NCBI GenBank assembly: GCA_003141955.1
Contig: PLOC01000080.1
Location: 15,122 to 51,170, forward strand
From: Chloroflexota bacterium
GTDB taxonomy: Bacteria; Chloroflexota; Limnocylindria; Limnocylindrales; CSP1-4
Direction: 5' to 3'
DNA: 36,049 nt
Part shown: positions 5,379 to 15,625 of the stretch, in pieces
How the letters are laid out: every line of letters begins with the position of its first letter
Numbering within the stretch: the first letter of the stretch is position 1
Translations under genes and position numbers: made by a program
Notes under the pieces: generated by a model
What the model saw: the letters and a program-made list of their open reading frames with translations, nothing else
The model's database searches: none
What the model was told of the DNA's origin: nothing

Positions 5379-5659
5379 AGCCGCCACTCCGGCCAGATCG
5401 AACACCCTTCCCGAAGCCGGCCCCTTCGTGGCGTCGACGCAACGAAGCCTCGCCGAACGTTGCCGGACAGCAACGTAATCCCCCCCACGAGGCCACCGGC
5501 GGGGACCAAAGGTACTAGACAGTTTCGCGCATATACTGCGACGATTCGGCAGCCTACCGGGGTGGGTAGCCCTGGGCAGGCCTTTCGTGGAAGTTGATCG
5601 TGAGTCGCCGCCGGTCGTCTGGCGCGCTTGTCGGTCTTGTTTGTGGAGGAACCAGAACC
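5379..5659. promoter_or_regulatory. Leader region of the adhesin gene, shares motifs with the 4217 leader
   Basis: No gene is seen here. A 7-bp stem-loop (ACGTTGC/GCAACGT, 5457-5476) could end transcription of the remnant. TACTAGACA (5512-5520), GGTAGCC (5564-5570), CAGGC (5576-5580) and GAGTCGCC (5602-5609) repeat the motif order found before 4217. TATACT at 5531-5536 is a possible -10 element. GGAGGA at 5645-5650 sets the GTG start at 5660. Confidence 0.4.
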
Positions 5660-8600
5660 GTGTTTTCGAAGCGACTTGGTTCGCGTACGTTCAGGCGCGT
5701 GGCTGCGTCCGTCATCATCGGCCTCCTGCTCGGCGGGTCGATGGCCTCGACGGTCATGGCTGAGCCCGTGCCGACCGTCGATCGGACCGTGACGACGAGT
5801 GTCTACACCGACCTGACTCCGCTGACGGTCACGATGTACAAGGAGATCTGCCCCACCTACTCGGACGTCCCGGCCAACGTGAACCCGGACAACCTCGACG
5901 CCACGGGCGGTCACTGGCGTGAGCTCGACACTACTGATTACACGACAAAGCCGGTCACTCCGGACAACAGCACCGCGAAAGGTTGCATACCCGCCGCGGG
6001 TTGGCAGTTCGAATTCACGAGCGGCCAGGGAGGCCCACTCCTCGCCACGTACACGACGGCCGGCGCCGACGGCTCCGTGACCGTCCCTCTCAACGCCGCT
6101 GAGCTCACTGTGGCCCGCAACAGCACAGGCCTCTGGGTCCTCGAGGTCACACAGGCGAGTGCGCCATTCGGCGCGATCCGCTGCTACAACGACATGCTCA
6201 ACGGCGACAACCTCGAGCAGATAACGTCGGTGCCGAACAACCTGGTGCAGGTCTACTGCTTCGCTTATAACGTGGCTGAGCCGCACCTGACCGTCACCAA
6301 GACCGAGGATCGATCCACGTACAACGCCCTCGGCCAGGTCATCACGTACACAATCAAGCTGACCAACGACGGCAACGTAACGCTCAACACACCGCTGGTG
6401 ACCGATTCCTCGGTGAGCGACCTCAACTGCGGCACTTTCCCGGCCACCCTCGCCCCCGCTGGCGTGATCAACTGCACCGCAAGCCACACCATCGCTTCAG
6501 CCGACATCACCAGCGGCTCGGTATCCAACACTGCCAACGGAACGGCCAGCTTCAACTCCACTCCGGTCACCGGCACCGCCACTGTCACGGCCACGGCTAA
6601 GCCCACCCTGACCATCACCGCGTCCAGCGGCACGATGGTGTACGGCGGCACGCCCCCGACCATCACGCCTAGCTACAGCGGTCTGACCGGCGGCGCCACC
6701 GGCCCCGCGACACCGCCCACCTGCTCCACGACCGCCACGAGCTCGAGCCCGGTGGGCTCCTATCCCTCCAGCTGCAGCGGCGCGGCCGATCCCAACTACA
6801 CGATCGTCTATGTGAATGGCTCGGTCAGCGTGACCCCCGCGGCCCTGACGGTCACCGCGAACAATCAGTTCAAGACCTACGGCTCGGCCAACCCGACCCT
6901 GACCGACACCATCACCGGCTTCGTCAACGGCGACACACTCTCTGTCGTGACCGGGGCCGCGAGCCTGTCCACGACCGCCACAGCTTCGAGCCCGGTCGGC
7001 TCCTACCCGATCACGGCCGCTCTGGGCACCCTGAGCGCGGCCAACTACAGCTTCATCTTCGTCAACGGCACCCTCAGCGTGACCCCGGCCAGCCTGACCA
7101 TCACCGCGAGCAGTGACTCGATGACCTACGGCGGCACCGTCCCCACCATCACCCCGAGCTACAGCGGCTTCGTCAACGGTGACACCGCCGCCAGCCTGGT
7201 CACGGCTCCGACCTGCTCCACGACCGCCGCGAGCTCGAGCCCGGTGGGCTCCTATCCCTCCAGCTGCAGCGGCGCGGTCGATCCCAACTACACCATCGGC
7301 TACGTGGATGGCTCGGTCAGCGTCGGCGCCGCGCCTGCTCCTGCCCTGACGCTCGTGAAGAAGGCCGACACGGCCACCTACGATCACGTCGGTCAACTGA
7401 TCCACTACACGTACACGGTCACCAACACCGGCAACGTCGACATCAGCGCTCTCGCGGTGACCGACGACAACATCGACGCCAGCACCAGCGTCACCTGCGA
7501 CGCCCCGTCCCTGGCCCCGCTGGCCTCCACGACCTGTCACGCGGTCCGCACCGTCGGTCAGGGCGATCTCAACGCCGGCAGCATCTCCAACAACGCCAAA
7601 GCCACCGGCACTCCCAGCGGCGGCAACCTGACGCCGGCCACGGCAAGCGTGACAGTGAAAGCCAACCAGCGGCCGCGCCTCAGCCTTACCAAGACCCCGA
7701 GCCCGACTACCTACACCAAGGCTGGCGACGTCATCACCTACACCTTCGTTCTGACCAACTCGGGCAACGTGACGCTGCCCGGGCCGTTCACGATCGTGGA
7801 TCCGATCGCGGATGCGACCTGCCAGGCCACCCCGGCCAGCCTCGCCCCCGGCGACAAGGTCACCTGCACGGGCACCTACACCGTCACCCAGGCTGACGTC
7901 AACCTCGGATTCATCCTCAACATCGCCGTCGGTCAGGGACAGTTCGGTGGCCGGACGGTCAGCTCGCTCCCCGCCTTCGCGACGGTCACGGCAACACCGG
8001 CTCCGGCTCTGACGCTCGCCAAGAGCGCCGACACCTCGATGTACAGCCTCAACCAGGTGATCCACTACAGCTACAAGCTCACCAACACGGGCAACGTCAC
8101 GATCTACGGGCCCTTCACGGTGACCGACGACAAGATCCAGAGCCCGAACTCGGTCACCTGCCCGGCCACCCCCAGCCTCGCGCCCGGCGCGTTCGTAACC
8201 TGCGCCGCCAGCTACACCGCCACCACGACCGATATGACCAACGGCTCTATCACGAACACCGCCACGGGACACGCGCACCGCTATCTGGTTGGACAGACCC
8301 TGGTCAACTCGAACAGTGACAGCGTCACGGTCACCGCCGCGGGTCCCGCCCTGACGCTCAAGAAGAGCGCCGACGCCACGACCTACGACGCCAACCAGCT
8401 CATCACCTACTCCTACCTGGTCACCAACACCGGCAACGTCACGATCACCGACCTGGCGGTGACCGACGACAAGATCGCCCTCGTCACCTGCACGGACACG
8501 ACCCTCGCGGCTGGTGCGCACACGACCTGCACCGGGACCTACACGACCGATCAGGGCGATGTGGACCATGGCTCGGTCACCAATAACGCCAGCGTCACCG

Positions 8601-9148
8601 GAACTCCGGCTGCCGGCAATCTCGCCCCGGCCACCGACTCGCTGACCATCGACGCCGCGGGTCCCGCCCTGACGCTCAAGAAGAGCGCCCAGGAGGACAG
8701 CTTCAGCGCTGCCGGCGACCTCATCCACTACAGCTACGTGATCAAGAACACTGGCAACGTGGCACTCGACGGTCCGTTCACGGTGGCCGACGACAAGACG
8801 CCGGTCACCTGCCCGGCCACCCCGACCACCCTCGCCGTCGGCGACTCGATCACCTGCACCGCGACCTACACGGTCACGGCGGCCGACGTCACCGGCCTCT
8901 ACGTCATCAACAAGGCGACCGCCCAGGCCGCCAACAACGGAGATCCGGTCACTTCCGCCGAGGTCAGCCTCACCGTCCCGATCGAGTCGGTCAAGGGCAA
9001 GACATTCACTCCGCCGCCCACGAACACCCCGTCGCGCCAGGGACCGGACGGCAACAGCACGCCGCTCTTCGCGTTGCTCATCAGCTTCGCCTTCGGGAGC
9101 CTCGCCCTGGTGACGGTCCAGGCTCAGCGACGCAGCATCCGGCGCTAG
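5660..9148 (+). CDS. Large repeat-built surface protein (MBG-like and DUF11/DUF7507-like domains)
   Basis: This 1162-residue exported protein is built from beta-rich repeats. The GTG at 5660 is chosen because GGAGGA lies nine bases upstream and a signal peptide follows directly (basic VFSKRLGSRTFRR, hydrophobic core, cleavage near VMAEP). A unique N-domain of about 200 residues is followed by one DUF11/DUF7507-type repeat (about 208-310), three MBG-type repeats (about 315-555; YGGTxPTITPSYSG, GSYPSSCSGA), then five more DUF11/DUF7507-type repeats (about 562-1105; ALTLKKSAD..TY, HYSYxVTNTGNV, CPATPxxLAPG). The C-terminus NSTPLFALLISFAFGS...QRRSIRR is the anchor shared with the protein at 4217. 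Such modular proteins usually act in adhesion or form envelope layers; a specific role is inference. Confidence 0.85.
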   Translation: MFSKRLGSRTFRRVAASVIIGLLLGGSMASTVMAEPVPTVDRTVTTSVYTDLTPLTVTMYKEICPTYSDVPANVNPDNLDATGGHWRELDTTDYTTKPVTPDNSTAKGCIPAAGWQFEFTSGQGGPLLATYTTAGADGSVTVPLNAAELTVARNSTGLWVLEVTQASAPFGAIRCYNDMLNGDNLEQITSVPNNLVQVYCFAYNVAEPHLTVTKTEDRSTYNALGQVITYTIKLTNDGNVTLNTPLVTDSSVSDLNCGTFPATLAPAGVINCTASHTIASADITSGSVSNTANGTASFNSTPVTGTATVTATAKPTLTITASSGTMVYGGTPPTITPSYSGLTGGATGPATPPTCSTTATSSSPVGSYPSSCSGAADPNYTIVYVNGSVSVTPAALTVTANNQFKTYGSANPTLTDTITGFVNGDTLSVVTGAASLSTTATASSPVGSYPITAALGTLSAANYSFIFVNGTLSVTPASLTITASSDSMTYGGTVPTITPSYSGFVNGDTAASLVTAPTCSTTAASSSPVGSYPSSCSGAVDPNYTIGYVDGSVSVGAAPAPALTLVKKADTATYDHVGQLIHYTYTVTNTGNVDISALAVTDDNIDASTSVTCDAPSLAPLASTTCHAVRTVGQGDLNAGSISNNAKATGTPSGGNLTPATASVTVKANQRPRLSLTKTPSPTTYTKAGDVITYTFVLTNSGNVTLPGPFTIVDPIADATCQATPASLAPGDKVTCTGTYTVTQADVNLGFILNIAVGQGQFGGRTVSSLPAFATVTATPAPALTLAKSADTSMYSLNQVIHYSYKLTNTGNVTIYGPFTVTDDKIQSPNSVTCPATPSLAPGAFVTCAASYTATTTDMTNGSITNTATGHAHRYLVGQTLVNSNSDSVTVTAAGPALTLKKSADATTYDANQLITYSYLVTNTGNVTITDLAVTDDKIALVTCTDTTLAAGAHTTCTGTYTTDQGDVDHGSVTNNASVTGTPAAGNLAPATDSLTIDAAGPALTLKKSAQEDSFSAAGDLIHYSYVIKNTGNVALDGPFTVADDKTPVTCPATPTTLAVGDSITCTATYTVTAADVTGLYVINKATAQAANNGDPVTSAEVSLTVPIESVKGKTFTPPPTNTPSRQGPDGNSTPLFALLISFAFGSLALVTVQAQRRSIRR
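6605..7327 (+). repeat. Three MBG-type repeats, first and third nearly identical at DNA level
   Basis: About 60 bases around CTCCTATCCCTCCAGCTGCA occur almost unchanged near 6745-6805 and 7235-7295. The middle repeat has diverged (NGDTLSVVTGAASLS). This pattern suggests duplication or gene conversion inside the gene. Confidence 0.8.
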
Positions 9149-9931: not shown

Positions 9932-11334
9932 CGGACCGCCGCTCCGTTCTCACCGGGATAGTTCGCACCATCGATCTCGAGAGGTCCGGCGGCTGGGCGC
10001 TCGTGGCGGTGCTCGCCGTCGAGGTCATGGTCGTGACGCGATCCACGGACGTGCCCAACGGTTCGGGCATCCCCTACTGGGGAGTGTGGCTCGTCGCGGT
10101 CGCGGCCTCGCTCGTCGTCGCGAGCCTGCTCGCAGCCCATCTCCGGCCCTCCGGCCCGTGGCTCCGGCCCGTGGAGGCCCTGGCCATCCTGGCCGTCGTG
10201 GCGATGGTCCTGAGCGACGTGACGATGGCGTGGCAGCCGCTCCGGGACCTGGGGATCTACCTCAAGGCGGGCGAGCACTTCCGAGACGGATCCGCGGTCT
10301 ACCTGCAGACGCCGCTGGCCGTCCAGCCGGTCGATCGGACCAGCTACCCGTTCCTCTACCCGCCGTGCACCCTGCCATTCCTCGGCGCGCTGTCGGTGCT
10401 GCCGCTCGAGCTGGTCCAGGCGCTCTGGGTCTGCTGCTCGCTCGGGCTGGGGCTGCTGGCGCTCCGCCTGTTCGGCCTGCCGCGCCGCTGGCTCGTGGCT
10501 GCCGTGCTCTGGCCTCCGCTCTTCCAGGGGCTGTGGGTCGGCAACGTGGCCGTGCCCGCCCTGGCGCTGTACGCGATCGGGCCGTGGCTCGGCGCCGGGC
10601 TGGTGCTCGGAGCCATCTTCAAGCCCTACACGAGCCTGGCGGCCCTGTGGCTGGTCGCGGAGCGGCGCTGGATGCAGATCGCGGCCGGCGCCGGGGCGAT
10701 GCTGCTGCTCGTGGCGGCGACCGTGCCGCTCACGGGCCTCACCCTCTGGACCGACTGGCTGAGCGCGCTGGGCGTTTACCAGACATCGCAGCGTAGCCTG
10801 CCGGGGCTGTACGGGTTCGGCCTGCCCCGGTTCGTTCCGTTCGCCGTCTACGCCGCCCTGGCGGTCGCGGCCGTCGCGGCCGCGCTTCGGGCGCGAGGCA
10901 AGGATTCGCTGGCGCGCCTGGGGACCGCGACGGTGGTGGCCAGCCCCTCGCTCTTCGGGCACGGGCTGCTGGTGGCCGTGCCGTCGATGCTGTCGCTGCG
11001 CTCCCCGTGGCTGTGGCTGGCGATCGGGTTCCTCTCTACGCCGGACGGGCTGCAGTGGTGGCTGGCAGTCGTCGTCGTGGCGGCTTCGTGGGCCCTGCCG
11101 GCGATGCGGCGCGCGACCGCGGCCGATGCAACGCAGCGCGACACGGCAGCGCCCGAACCGCTGCACCCGCTGGGCGCCACGCAGGAGCCGTGGCCGAGGT
11201 TCTCGGCGGAACGCAACCTAGGAAGAGGGCGAGGGAGCGGGGACCGTCAGGTGGTAGACATCGGACTGGCCGAAGACGACCGTGTGACCGGCGAACGACC
11301 CGATGGCCTGGACGCGGACCGACCAGTCGCCTGA
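9928..11334 (+). CDS. Membrane glycosyltransferase, GT87/DUF2029-like
   Basis: A 468-residue protein with about ten transmembrane helices, beginning at GTG 9928 and overlapping the previous stop by four bases. The first extracytoplasmic loop has D-x-x-x-Y-LKAGEHFRDGSAVY, followed by YPFLYPPCTLPFLGALSVLP. This is the pattern of polyprenyl-phosphate-sugar-dependent GT-C enzymes of family GT87 (mannosyl/arabinosyl-type transferases). GNVAVPALALYAIGP and GAIFKPYTSLAALWLVAERRW also fit this family. The enzyme would move sugars outside the membrane onto lipid or protein acceptors; the acceptor is unknown, though the nearby Thr-rich stalks are plausible. The last 117 bases overlap the convergent gene at 11218, so the charged tail may be unimportant. 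Confidence 0.8.
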   Translation: MTDRRSVLTGIVRTIDLERSGGWALVAVLAVEVMVVTRSTDVPNGSGIPYWGVWLVAVAASLVVASLLAAHLRPSGPWLRPVEALAILAVVAMVLSDVTMAWQPLRDLGIYLKAGEHFRDGSAVYLQTPLAVQPVDRTSYPFLYPPCTLPFLGALSVLPLELVQALWVCCSLGLGLLALRLFGLPRRWLVAAVLWPPLFQGLWVGNVAVPALALYAIGPWLGAGLVLGAIFKPYTSLAALWLVAERRWMQIAAGAGAMLLLVAATVPLTGLTLWTDWLSALGVYQTSQRSLPGLYGFGLPRFVPFAVYAALAVAAVAAALRARGKDSLARLGTATVVASPSLFGHGLLVAVPSMLSLRSPWLWLAIGFLSTPDGLQWWLAVVVVAASWALPAMRRATAADATQRDTAAPEPLHPLGATQEPWPRFSAERNLGRGRGSGDRQVVDIGLAEDDRVTGERPDGLDADRPVA

Positions 11335-13158
11335 CGTCAGGTGGTCGAGCGACCCGGAGGCGGCCCCGGTCCCGAAGGCCACGTAGCAATCGCCGTCGAG
11401 ATAGGAGGGGCTGCCGTCTCCGGCCACGTAGACGAGCTTGTAGGCATCGAAACTGAAGCCGCCTGTGTATGCGGCCCAGCTGAAGGTGTACGTGCCGTCG
11501 CCGTTGTCGCTGAAGCCCAGGGCGCCGAGATCCTGCGTCGGCGGGTCGGTGGCGGCGGGCGCCGTCGCCTTGAAGTGGACGATGCCGGTCTGGGCCCGGA
11601 TGACGATGCCCTTCGACTCGTCCACCGCCTGCACCCGGACGGCGTAGTTGCCGACATCGACGGGGCCGGTCCAGCTGTTCTCGTCGCGGCTGTCGTTGCA
11701 CGCCCAGAACGGCGAGGTCGGATAGTTCGGTGTCGTCCCCCAGTTGCCATAGACGAGCTTGTAGTACGTGAAACCGTCGCCGCTGTACTCGGGCCACGAG
11801 AACGTGTAGGTCCCGTCGCCGTTGTTGACGATCGTCAGCTTGCCCAGGCTGGCAGGCCCGGAGGGAGTCGGCTTGGGGGTTGGCTTGCGGGTCGGCTTGC
11901 GGGTCGGCTCGCTGGTGGGGGCCGCGGTCGGGCGCGTGACCGGGCCGACCGTCGGCCACGGCATCATGCTGGGACTTTCCGTGGGGCCGACGTCCACGGC
12001 CAGCTCGCCGAGCGCGAGCCCGGCCAGCGCGTCGAGGTGGGCGTTTTCGACGAGCCAGGAGTCGGCCAGAACCGCCGCGCTGATCTGCGCGACGACCGGC
12101 TCGCCCTGGGGGGATCCGCCCGCGGCCAGCTCGACCGTGGCGCTCTGACCCTGGTTGAGGCTCGTCGCCAGCTGGGGGCCCTGCAGGTTCAAGCCGTCGA
12201 GGAGAGCCAGGCCGCGCACTTCCTGGCCGCCCGCGGCCGTGGGCTGGCGATCCAGGTCGAAGGCGGTGCCCGAGGCGACCCAGCTCACCGAGCCGGTCGC
12301 GACCGTGTAGTCACCAGCGGTGGCGGCGGAGGCTCGATAGTAGGCGCGGCCGACGAGCTGATCGACGACGATGTGTTTCGCGTCGAGGCTGTCCAGGCGC
12401 ACTTCCGATCCCGGCGCCATCCGCACGAAGCTCCCACTCATGGCGAGCGTCGCCTGTCCGCCGGCTCCAACCTGAATCTCGTCACCTTCGAGCAGTTGCG
12501 CGCCCTGGGCCAGCGGGCTCGACACCCCCGCTCGAATGAGAGTGGTCGCGACCGCCACGTCCGCCGTCGCTTCCGGCCGGACCGGGAAGAGCAGCGTGCT
12601 GCCGTACAGGAAGCTGGCGATCGCGATCGTGGCCGCGAGTCCGGCCACCACCCAGCGCGCCGGCACGATGCGGGTCGGCATCCGCCAGTGCACCGACGGG
12701 CGCAGCGTGGCGACGTGGCCCGCCGGCAGGGCGCCCAGGTCGGTGGGCTCGACGGCGGGGAGCGCTCCCGGTCGCGTGGCTGAGATCGGCTGAACCTGGC
12801 GCGCGCGCCAGCGCTTGCCCTCCTCGGGCCCCGCAACCTGCCTGCCGTCGCCGCTCGATGAGGCCGCCGCGACCCCGTGAAGGCCGCGCCGATAGGCGAG
12901 GCTCTCGGGGACGCGGAGGGGTCGACCCGGCGGGACGAGCGTGGCGGCCGGCGGCGCATCGGCCAGCAAGACCGCAGCCTTCGGCGCCGGCCGTGCCTGC
13001 GAGAGGCCGCCCAGCAGCTGGGCGCGCAACCTCGCCGCGAAGACGGGGTCCGGAGTCTCGCCGCGGGCAGAAGCAGCGCGGGCGATCTCCCCGGCCTCAA
13101 TCAGCTCGGCTGCCAGCTCGTCGAGCTGGTCCATCTCGTGGCGATCGTCAGGCGACAT
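11218..13158 (-). CDS. FecR-domain anti-sigma factor with extracytoplasmic FN3-like modules
   Basis: A 646-residue single-pass membrane protein, the likely partner of the sigma factor encoded just upstream; its ATG lies inside the sigma gene (11-base overlap). Residues 1-168 are cytoplasmic and Ala/Arg-rich, with an acidic N-terminal helix suited to sigma binding. A membrane span lies at about 169-192 (WVVAGLAATIAIASFLYGS). Residues 200-345 form a FecR domain (GDEIQVGAGGQATLAMSGSFVRMAPGSEVRL, split here by description; GSVSWVASGTAF). A Thr/Pro/Lys linker (410-432) leads to two modules with DGTYTFSWPEYSG and DGTYTFSWAAYTG. The classic zinc anti-sigma motif is absent. The protein could sense surface or wall state; the same modules occur in the protein at 13951. 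Confidence 0.8.
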   Translation of the reverse strand: MSPDDRHEMDQLDELAAELIEAGEIARAASARGETPDPVFAARLRAQLLGGLSQARPAPKAAVLLADAPPAATLVPPGRPLRVPESLAYRRGLHGVAAASSSGDGRQVAGPEEGKRWRARQVQPISATRPGALPAVEPTDLGALPAGHVATLRPSVHWRMPTRIVPARWVVAGLAATIAIASFLYGSTLLFPVRPEATADVAVATTLIRAGVSSPLAQGAQLLEGDEIQVGAGGQATLAMSGSFVRMAPGSEVRLDSLDAKHIVVDQLVGRAYYRASAATAGDYTVATGSVSWVASGTAFDLDRQPTAAGGQEVRGLALLDGLNLQGPQLATSLNQGQSATVELAAGGSPQGEPVVAQISAAVLADSWLVENAHLDALAGLALGELAVDVGPTESPSMMPWPTVGPVTRPTAAPTSEPTRKPTRKPTPKPTPSGPASLGKLTIVNNGDGTYTFSWPEYSGDGFTYYKLVYGNWGTTPNYPTSPFWACNDSRDENSWTGPVDVGNYAVRVQAVDESKGIVIRAQTGIVHFKATAPAATDPPTQDLGALGFSDNGDGTYTFSWAAYTGGFSFDAYKLVYVAGDGSPSYLDGDCYVAFGTGAASGSLDHLTSGDWSVRVQAIGSFAGHTVVFGQSDVYHLTVPAPSPSS

Positions 13159-13699
13159 CGGCTGCCTCCCTGGCGATCTCCACGCGCAGAGCGCGCAGCG
13201 CCCGATGCAGCCGAACGGCCAGAGTCTCGCGCGAGCAGCCGAACGCGGCGCACAGCTCCGTGGTGTCCAGATCGTCGTAGAAGCGCATCACCAGCAGCTC
13301 GCGATGGCCCGCCGGCAGGCTCAGCAGCGCCCGCCGGAGCTGGTCCTGGTCCAGGGCGGCCGCCAGGGTATCGAGGGCAAGGTCGCCCGGCTCTTCGCCC
13401 TCCGCCAGGTCCGTGAGCGAGACGAAGCGACGATCGCGGCGGGCGTTGTCGACAACGGCGTTCGAAGCCACACGAAACAGCCAGCCCCCGAAACAATCGT
13501 TTCGGAAGTCGGCGCGTCGCACGTTCTCGAGCGCTCGCTGGAAGGTCATCGAAGTGAGGTCCTCGGCCAGGCTGCGGTCCTGGACACGGCGGAAGATGAA
13601 GCCGTAGATGCGAGGAAGGTAGAAGTCGTAGAGCTCGCCGAAAGCGGCGCAGTCGTCGCGCGACCGTTCCACGAGCGTTCGCTCGCGGTCGGCGGCCAT
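13148..13699 (-). CDS. ECF-type sigma-70 factor
   Basis: A 183-residue group 4 sigma factor directing RNA polymerase to a small regulon. Region 2 spans about 17-85: FGELYDFYLPRIYGFIFRRV, DLTSMTFQRALENV and the DNA-contact part FRNDCFGGWLFRVASNAVVD. Region 4 spans about 118-172: ALLSLPAGHRELLVMRFYDD followed by the helix-turn-helix TTELCAAFGCSRETLAVRLHRALRAL. The start is the ATG at 13699 with GGAG eight bases upstream; an ATG at 13723 is an alternative. It is co-transcribed with and overlaps the FecR-type gene, the usual arrangement for a sigma/anti-sigma pair. It probably controls its own operon and perhaps the surface protein upstream; no -35/-10 pair for it could be identified. Confidence 0.92.
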   Translation of the reverse strand: MAADRERTLVERSRDDCAAFGELYDFYLPRIYGFIFRRVQDRSLAEDLTSMTFQRALENVRRADFRNDCFGGWLFRVASNAVVDNARRDRRFVSLTDLAEGEEPGDLALDTLAAALDQDQLRRALLSLPAGHRELLVMRFYDDLDTTELCAAFGCSRETLAVRLHRALRALRVEIAREAADVA

Positions 13700-13853
13700 T
13701 CGAGATGCTCCGTCATTTCCCATGGAGCCATGAACGGTACGGAGCGACGATCGAGCGGGCAATCGGCCACCTGTACTGAGAAGTACCGCCGCCCGCCAGG
13801 GCGCCGGTACCGGGCAATCGGAACGCGAAGGGCAGGCTTCTCTGGCGGGGGAG

Positions 13854-13877
13854 GGGCTCCGACTCTCGTCGGAGCCC
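13854..13877 (-). terminator. Hairpin after the surface-protein gene, probable terminator
   Basis: A perfect 10-bp stem (13854-13863 with 13868-13877) with a GAGA loop on the minus strand, 74 bases past the stop at 13951. No U-tract follows, so termination may be partial. It would separate this gene from the sigma operon. Confidence 0.55.
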
Positions 13878-13950
13878 GCTCGCCCTGTTCCTGCTCAGGC
13901 CGGAGCCCTGTCATCGAGCCGGCACTTTCTGCCAGGCCGGTTGGGCCTGC

Positions 13951-15363
13951 CTAGCCTTCACTCGAAGGGCTCGGCGCTTCGGATGGAGCTGCGGACGGGG
14001 CCGGAGTCGCAGCCGCCGGGATCTTCACCGTGATCACCGGCGACTGGGCCAGGATGGTCTCGCCGTTGCAGACGGTCTGTGAAGTCCAGGCGAAGACCCG
14101 GTAGTGATACGTGTGGCCGGCCTGGACCGACGTGTCGACCCAGGACGTCGCCGTCACGTCACCGATCTCCTTGATGACGTTGGCCTGCGTCGGAGTCCCG
14201 CTCTCGGTGCGGGCGATCAGGTAGTCCTCAAAGTGGTCGCCGGTGTACTTGTCCCAGCTGAGATGGGCGAATCCGTCATCGCCGACGGTCACGGTCAGGC
14301 CGATCGAGGGGATCGGCGCCGCCGCCACGACGAGCTTGAGGGTGTCGGTCTTCGCGGCTGCGGCAGCGCCGCCGGCCGGGAAGTAGACCGCTTCGACGTT
14401 GACGTTCCAGGTTCCGGGATCGACCTTGACGGTCACGCTCGTGGTCTTGTTGTCCAGGCAGGCCCAGTAGTGGCCGCTGTTCTCGACGTAGCCGGGCGTG
14501 GCCGGATAGGGCTGGCCGTCGAGCTTGTAGTAGGTGAAATCGGTGTCGCCGGTATAGGCGGCCCAGCTGAAGGTGTAGGTGCCGTCGGAGTTCTTGGCGG
14601 CATGGAGCGCGCCGAGGTCGGCCGGGTTGTCGGTGGCAGTCGGCTTGGGGGTCGCCGGGACGGAGATCGTCACGAGGTTCGTGGAGTCGAGGACGACATA
14701 GCCGCCACTGGTGGACCTGACGGCGAAGACCTCGTACGACCAGGTCTTGCCGGCGGGCGCGCAGTCCGTGTAGGTGAGCGTGGACTGGTTGCTGATGGCT
14801 GCGAGGAGCGAGTCGCCGCTGCCGAGCGGCCAGCTGGCTACCTTGTAGGATGAGCGGACGACCTTGTAGTAGGCGAAGTCGGCGCCGTCATATGCGGTCC
14901 AGGTCAGGACGACCTTGCTGCCGCTGAGCTTGGCGGTGAGCGTCATCGTGCCCGACGTGTCGGTCGAGGTCGGCTCGGCCGTGGGGGCCGCGGTCGGTGC
15001 CGCGGTTGGGGCCGCTGTCGGAGCCGCGGTCGGAGCCGCGGTTGGGGCCGTGGTTGGGGCCGTGGTCGGCTCGACGGTCGGTGCCGCTGTCGGGGCGGGC
15101 GTGGGAGTGTCGTCGGGGCCGTCGTCGCCGACGACGACCGGCGTGGCGCTCGCCATCGGCCCCATGACCACCGGCCGCACCACGGTCGCGCCGAAGGCGA
15201 CCGTCGCCACGACCAGGATGGCGACTATGGCCAGCGGCAGCGAGGCGGTGAGGCGGCGGGGCGATACCTTCAACGGCGTGAGGCGCCGAACGAAGTCGTC
15301 TTCCACCCGTGCACCCTGGGACGGCGATGGGCCGTGATCCGGATCACGTGTCTGGTGTTCCAT
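13951..15363 (-). CDS. Membrane-anchored surface protein with APT repeats and three FN3-like modules
   Basis: A 470-residue type II-like membrane protein. ATG 15363 is chosen because GGAG lies nine bases upstream and the frame before it is non-coding in look. A cytoplasmic basic segment (1-38) precedes one span at about 39-62 (LPLAIVAILVVATVAFGATV). A stalk of APTA/TAPT repeats (about 85-132) carries three beta-modules (about 139-245, 255-350, 360-455) with LTWTAYDGADFAYYKVV, DGTYTFSWAAYTG and HLSWDKYTGDHFEDYLI. It ends in an Ala/Pro/Ser tail. The middle module contains the same 13-residue run DGTYTFSWAAYTG as the anti-sigma factor at 11218. The fold looks fibronectin-III-like; ligands are unknown. 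It lies upstream of the sigma factor on the same strand. Confidence 0.8.
   Translation of the reverse strand: MEHQTRDPDHGPSPSQGARVEDDFVRRLTPLKVSPRRLTASLPLAIVAILVVATVAFGATVVRPVVMGPMASATPVVVGDDGPDDTPTPAPTAAPTVEPTTAPTTAPTAAPTAAPTAAPTAAPTAAPTAEPTSTDTSGTMTLTAKLSGSKVVLTWTAYDGADFAYYKVVRSSYKVASWPLGSGDSLLAAISNQSTLTYTDCAPAGKTWSYEVFAVRSTSGGYVVLDSTNLVTISVPATPKPTATDNPADLGALHAAKNSDGTYTFSWAAYTGDTDFTYYKLDGQPYPATPGYVENSGHYWACLDNKTTSVTVKVDPGTWNVNVEAVYFPAGGAAAAAKTDTLKLVVAAAPIPSIGLTVTVGDDGFAHLSWDKYTGDHFEDYLIARTESGTPTQANVIKEIGDVTATSWVDTSVQAGHTYHYRVFAWTSQTVCNGETILAQSPVITVKIPAAATPAPSAAPSEAPSPSSEG
14968..15093 (-). repeat. 12-bp tandem repeats coding for the Ala-Pro-Thr stalk
   Basis: About ten four-residue units (APTA, TAPT and variants) written as GTCGGxGCCGCG-like 12-mers on the plus strand. 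The repeats are in frame and probably variable in number. Confidence 0.85.
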
Positions 15364-15625
15364 TCCGATCGCTCCACTCAATCTGAGGTGATGAGTCCGC
15401 GCGGCGGGAAGGCCAACCGCTTGACAACAGAACGCGGCAGAAAGGCCAGCATTACAGGCCGCGGCACAAACGGTGTGCCAGGTCAACGGCCGTTCGCTGC
15501 CGACTGGGGCGGCCGGGGCGCCGGGTGCGTTTGACAGCCGGGCGCGACCGACCCCATGCTCGCCTCGACCACTCGCGACGCCTCGGCCCACCCGGGCAGG
15601 CGCACCATCTCGATCGGGGTTGCCA

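Follow-up and report, generated by a model that had tools for sequence, protein, structure and literature searches.

A putative self-contained ECF sigma factor operon in Chloroflexota whose sensor and surface protein share FN3-like modules

In the window (the whole 36,049-nucleotide stretch of Chloroflexota DNA analysed here, which comes from a 2.8 Mb MAG of 124 contigs that is 95.6% complete), three genes on the minus strand encode, in this order, a surface protein, an ECF sigma factor and a putative membrane anti-sigma factor that would act as a sensor. Our main reading, to which we assign a rough probability of 0.45, is that they form a self-contained ECF operon serving one surface protein. 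The places given to the three genes in an earlier note on this DNA were correct: the surface protein (P0003, 470 aa) is encoded at 13951–15363(−), the sigma factor (183 aa, start MAADRERT, frame open from 13762) from 13148 to about 13699(−), and the sensor (P0001, 646 aa) at 11218–13158(−), with an 11-bp overlap between the sensor start and the sigma stop. Between the surface and sigma genes lies a perfect 10-bp GC-rich hairpin (GGGCTCCGAC GAGA GTCGGAGCCC, 13854–13877(−)), which might lower read-through into the sigma and sensor genes. About 2 kb past the sensor gene, the plus strand (5594–9148) encodes a large protein with repeats, among them six DUF7507 and three MBG stretches, which is probably another surface protein. 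Conserved flanking genes were considered as extra parts of the unit and rejected, as the flanks are housekeeping-like and vary among clades.

The sigma factor matched the Pfam models Sigma70_r2 (5e-12) and Sigma70_r4_2 (1e-10), both over cut-off, and also scored over the cut-off of the sigma70-ECF superfamily model TIGR02937; it is a short protein with sigma-70 regions 2 and 4 only, as is characteristic of the ECF class. The best-scoring NCBIfam model was that of the BldN family (TIGR02952), with 94.4 bits against a cut-off of 206, which places the protein outside that family. The sensor consists of a conserved cytoplasmic N-terminus (PDPxFAAxLRxxL), one transmembrane segment located by hydropathy scan (residues ~170–186, 12601–12651(−)), a FecR domain (residues 226–306, 12241–12483(−)), a Pro/Thr stalk and two modules. 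Its anti-sigma function is inferred; no anti-sigma domain of Pfam was matched by the window sensor or by the 17 sensors scanned, and no Pfam model for a FecR-type cytoplasmic N-terminal domain matched in these 17. The label FecR-type given to it earlier was right in that an extracytoplasmic PF04773 domain is present, and it depends on a borderline match (24.2 bits, cut-off 24). PF04773 was matched in 11 of the 17 sensors at E 0.1 or better, and the domain is missing from the sensors of the second family, f4 (G129, G149 and G151), and from those of G088 and G103, all of which keep the N-terminal part, the transmembrane segment, the stalk and two modules. Since several sensors are without the FecR domain and none is without the modules, the FecR domain does not belong to the core, and the modules, not the FecR domain, are the feature common to all sensors.

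The surface protein is built of a cytoplasmic tail, one transmembrane segment (residues 43–62, 15178–15237(−); hydropathy 2.7; relatives show the same pattern of small residues), a Pro/Thr stalk and three FN3-like modules, which were recognised in its translation by the module HMM and, for module 3, by an fn3 Pfam match (E 8.8e-6); no catalytic domain was found in it. Just before the membrane segment, the tail carries the motif GARVEDDFVRRLT (residues 17–29, 15277–15315(−)), which takes the form GARVEDDFVRPL in the window's genus (g1) and AELLDDRTRxI in its family (f1) and is present in 21 of 26 surface-protein tails, compared with 0–4% of shuffled tails. A motif conserved in this way indicates that the surface protein is probably no passive coat and suggests a binding partner within the cell.

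The claim that the sensor carries two, and the surface protein three, modules of the same type held up, with a likeness well beyond chance. A blastp comparison of the two proteins gave an E value of 4e-16, and, apart from itself, the sensor strongly matched only the adjacent surface protein when searched against its own genome (E 7.5e-23, 265 residues). When profiles built from 21 sensor and 14 surface ectodomains were compared, hhalign aligned them over 195 columns (99.8%, E 2.3e-28), so the kinship of the modules extends along their whole length and is not limited to a short motif. An AlphaFold model of sensor module A2 (11236–11541(−)), for which the five modules of the window were the only alignment input, reached a pLDDT of 89.8 and has an FN3 beta sandwich fold, with FN3 domains as the best Foldseek matches in the PDB (prob 1.00, TM ~0.6–0.7); the surface profile matched 3mpc, which is FN3-like (E 6e-5). 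No known carbohydrate-binding family or RsgI model was matched in the window proteins and the 17 sensors. An HMM seeded with the window's five modules recovered, at convergence, 148 modules across the fetched loci, almost all of them within triad genes, with two modules in each complete sensor and mostly two or three in each surface protein. Elsewhere in the window's genome, a 310-codon open frame (L072:3744–4673, G000:C108) has one distant FN3-like module at its C-terminus.

A second line of evidence comes from the region upstream of the operon. In 24 of 25 upstream regions drawn from the genus, the family and the class, a bipartite element, GTAATCS-N14(15)-CGTTCTGT, lies ~60 bp ahead of the start codon of the surface gene, and in the window it yields a predicted ECF promoter at 15427–15455(−), with GTAAT as the −35 box, a spacer of N16 and CGTTCTGT as the −10 box. 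ECF promoters typically contain AAC in the −35 box and CGT in the −10 box (PMC8103513), and this likeness makes the element plausible as an ECF promoter. In the window's genome, the pattern GTAATN16CGTTNTGT has a single exact match, and two one-mismatch sites look like chance. Across 177 genomes of the class, exact copies of GTAATN16CGTTCTGT number 17, against 0 in the reversed control, and all 17 precede a triad surface gene or a remnant of one; the copy on contig G010:C87, where none was expected, stands before the N-terminus of a surface protein. In G020, which has no surface gene, the promoter is kept before the sigma gene, and no recognisable copy was found in g15. Among the exact matches in the window's own genome and the 177 class genomes, the promoter stands before no enzyme, transporter or other target gene, and a generic scan for sigma-70 promoters and terminators gave nothing useful. 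A conserved ECF-like promoter thus stands before the sigma factor's own operon and, as an exact pattern, is otherwise absent from the genome, making this a case of candidate autoregulation. Since the strict promoter occurs only at triads or their remnants, the evident regulon would comprise a single operon, the sigma factor's own; divergent promoters could escape the strict pattern. The same finding strengthened the proposal that the locus is a dedicated surface-signalling unit, and we regard a closed one-operon loop as very probable.

Between promoter and start codon, the leader holds a further conserved element, GGACTCAT (15391–15398(−)), which is matched at 8/8 positions in 16 of 25 leaders and at 7/8 positions in seven more. 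Its combination with the −10 box is unique in the window's genome, even when two mismatches are allowed. Across the family and the class, the element, written as GGACTCAT(C), lies either 4–7 or ~24–31 bases from the −10 box, and further away in L054.

A survey of the genome context, in which the sensor was searched in 201 genomes and about 50 stretches were fetched, returned sensor matches in the window's genus, in family f1 and in f4, a second family of the same class of little-known Chloroflexota. The order surface gene, sigma, sensor, all on one strand, was present in 29 of the 32 judgeable genomes (g1, 12/13; other f1, 14/16; f4, 3/3; the triad of G139 is split across two contigs), so that homologues of the sensor do have both the modules and a module-bearing neighbour. 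The three exceptions, G020 and the g15 genomes G054 and G066, retain sigma and sensor without a surface gene, showing that the sensor does not strictly need this gene. The sensor profile matched in 39 of the 177 class genomes; outside the class, 400 genomes of the phylum gave only weak matches, mostly to single modules and many within large proteins. A contig scan for relatives returned only one locus, the deletion remnant of G003. Deletions in G003 (L044), G014 (L062) and G012 (L093) have taken out the sigma gene together with the greater part of the surface and sensor genes; what is left is the whole or partial promoter, or the start of the surface gene, followed by pieces of the last sensor module, and with such scars in three genomes of the genus the unit has been lost more than once. 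Across 18 triads, mean module identity is only ~36–37%, and the pairing is conserved at class depth. Surface-module divergence tracks sensor-module divergence in these triads (partial r 0.60 given sigma, 0.63 given FecR), and the FecR part adds nothing once the modules are removed (−0.02); this covariation is suggestive only, since it is not significant within g1 (p 0.17) and the permutation ignores phylogeny.

Several genomes carry additional genes with related modules. In G013 (L039, L091), surface-type genes stand in tandem before sigma, and an extra surface-type gene with a weaker promoter and the same leader element lies on a separate contig; G007 (L069) has a second pair of a surface-type gene and a sigma gene. 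Lipoproteins with one A1-type and one A2-type module and no sigma gene of their own are encoded at L084:8303–9187, L085:9137–9967 and L065:2618–3430; one of them is the fourth gene of a triad, and that of L084 adjoins a secreted glycosidase-like lipoprotein (judged by eye). The lipoproteins of G133 and G163 bear sensor-type modules without any sigma, indicating that such modules can act on their own. Four predicted membrane or secreted proteins (L087:3773–4624, L092:1966–2814, L088:5090–5968 and L090:5157–5936) have one surface-type-looking module at the C-terminus, which in two of them is preceded by a coiled-coil-like stretch.

The sequence likeness within the window includes an identical stretch of 13 residues. 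The sensor holds DGTYTFSWPEYSG and DGTYTFSWAAYTG, and, as had been noticed earlier, DGTYTFSWAAYTG recurs unchanged in the surface protein, where it lies in the middle module S2 (14548–14586). At the DNA level, the two copies differ at 4 of 39 bases, all synonymous, so it is the residues and not the DNA that have been maintained. Because of these four synonymous differences, an assembly duplicate and a recent gene conversion were both rejected, the latter also because the S2 clade is genus-wide. In an IQ-TREE phylogeny of 114 modules, sensor and surface positions outside the window's genus separated into groups of their own, most of them well supported; the two sensor modules and the middle surface module of the genus itself all fell inside the clade of C-terminal sensor modules (100/96). 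Profile scores were in line with the tree: all complete middle surface modules of the genus scored best with the sensor A2 profile, as did the window's S2 (14314–14652(−); 45 bits, surface profiles ≤11), and sensor module A1 (11542–11853(−)) is of the A2 type in this genus (40 bits A2 versus 9 bits A1). S1 (14653–14961(−)) is of the surface type (104 bits with the outgroup Sfirst profile, ≤39 with sensor profiles), and S3 (14002–14313(−)) is probably of the surface type, its placement being uncertain (54 bits Slast versus 46 bits A1). AU tests rejected the grouping of the genus's S2 with other middle surface modules (p 0.0035) and of its A1 with other A1 modules (p 0.011), and did not reject that of S3 with other S3 modules (p 0.45). 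A move of an A1-type module into position S3, hinted at by a quick tree, was supported neither by profile scores nor by IQ-TREE or the AU test and was dropped. Judging from tree, profile scores and AU tests, a module of the sensor type apparently took the place of the sensor's first module in the ancestor of g1 and was also inserted into the surface protein. The surface and sensor types of module had become distinct before f1 and f4 split. The identical 13-mer is confined to one genus; the pairing of sensor and surface protein in general does not rest on it.

In the mechanism that we propose, the cytoplasmic N-terminus of the sensor would hold the sigma factor at the membrane, and activation would release it, probably via regulated proteolysis; both steps are modelled on what is known of the family. 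E. coli FecR is cleaved by RseP (PMC8144685), and homologues of M50 site-2 proteases are encoded in the window's genome. The free sigma factor would, judging from the promoter, transcribe only this operon, so that surface protein, sigma and sensor would rise together. In the least certain step, the trigger would be sensed via the paired modules and would be the state of the operon's own structure, that is, the surface protein or its assembled state, and the loop would operate as a surface-protein homeostat. That the sensor reads its own product in this manner we consider possible, at somewhat less than even odds. A more specific version, in which like modules of sensor and surface protein bind each other on the same or on different cells, the loop counts copies or contacts and the cytoplasmic tail provides a second link to the sigma–sensor complex, appears rather unlikely to us.

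Sensing of its own product is closely followed by a reading akin to RsgI, which we hold with similar reserve: the like modules may bind one outside ligand (a polysaccharide, matrix or another cell) without touching each other, and the sensor would induce the protein that handles it. RsgI proteins offer a precedent, as their outer modules bind carbohydrate and SigI controls genes for the matching substrates (PMC4711584). The main evidence on this side comes from the sensors that live without a surface gene, which a shared ligand would explain and which, occurring in two lineages, argue against the surface protein as an obligatory partner, together with the G133 and G163 lipoproteins; stand-alone lipoproteins with sensor-type modules, one of them the neighbour of the glycosidase-like lipoprotein at L084, point the same way. 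Less easily reconciled with a shared ligand are a promoter common to no enzyme, transporter or other target and a surface protein that has neither a catalytic domain nor a match to a known carbohydrate-binding family.

Two further explanations deny the module pair a role in signalling. FN3 domains often serve as linkers in the surface proteins of bacteria, and other membrane proteins encoded in these genomes also contain single modules, so the modules could be mere spacers through the envelope, alike through a common stalk origin, with the FecR domain or the membrane segment doing the sensing. We consider this improbable: it is the FecR domain that is missing in the f4 sensors, G088 and G103, and the two modules that are always retained, the module positions form separately conserved groups, for which a mere spacer has no need, and a sensor-type module was transferred into the partner. 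Finally, the locus could be an ordinary autoregulated ECF operon in which the surface gene merely comes first and the likeness stems from duplication within the locus, without meaning for signalling. Autoregulation has been estimated for ~55% of ECF sigma factors (PMC8103513), and parts can duplicate between genes of one operon; still, a pairing kept to the depth of the class in 18 triads despite so low a module identity, and module types that were distinct before f1 and f4 separated, make this explanation very improbable.

In the BldN/RsbN system of Streptomyces, BldN controls surface proteins, the chaplins and rodlins. The present sigma factor resembles it in having the BldN family as its best NCBIfam model and in being linked to a surface protein; the score is far below the cut-off, however, there is no chaplin-like product, and no RsbN is known to carry such modules. 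FecI/FecR signalling, which uses a FecA relay, shares with the triad an ECF sigma factor adjoining a membrane anti-sigma factor (putative in the triad) with an outer FecR domain (in most of f1) and a partner surface protein encoded in the same unit. Unlike FecI/FecR, the triad comes without iron genes and, since its conserved unit consists only of surface protein, sigma and sensor, without a TonB-dependent receptor as partner; its FecR domain is borderline and missing in several members, and FN3 modules have been added. That the system may not be tied to iron transport, as suggested earlier, fits a unit that includes no transporter or TonB receptor. FecI-like sigma factors have also been named as exceptions to autoregulation (PMC8103513), whereas the operon described here is apparently autoregulated. 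A parallel in architecture also exists with the SigI/RsgI systems, by which Clostridium thermocellum senses biomass (PMC4711584, PMC12203970) and in which the outer carbohydrate-binding modules of RsgI include family 3, also found on the cellulosomal scaffoldin (PMC4711584). As in these systems, a membrane anti-sigma factor, putative in the triad, carries an outer module of a kind that is also present on surface proteins of the same cell; the sigma factor of those systems is autoregulated, and autoregulation is predicted here from the promoter. In contrast to them, the sigma factor is an ECF sigma and not SigI, the modules are FN3-like and not carbohydrate-binding, the apparent regulon is one operon headed by a surface protein with no enzyme involved, and, in the window proteins and the 17 sensors, the absence of matches to RsgI or carbohydrate-binding models sets the triad apart from the family. 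Searches of the PMC literature, which does not include most subscription papers, turned up no previous account of ECF anti-sigma factors that carry FN3 modules. The observation in the earlier note holds up and its interpretation is supported in part; the triad belongs to the ECF/anti-sigma kind as a variant and is not a separate kind.

In this unit the outer part of the sensor, the product and the promoter are all readable from sequence, each pointing to the others, and the only evident target is a surface protein made of modules of the same kind as those of the sensor. Should these modules touch, the triad would show cleanly how a bacterium can gauge its surface via a matched pair; should they share a ligand, the RsgI principle would be extended to ECF sigma factors and to Chloroflexota. 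With the promoter and the module pair in hand, the system would be testable with few constructs under either reading.
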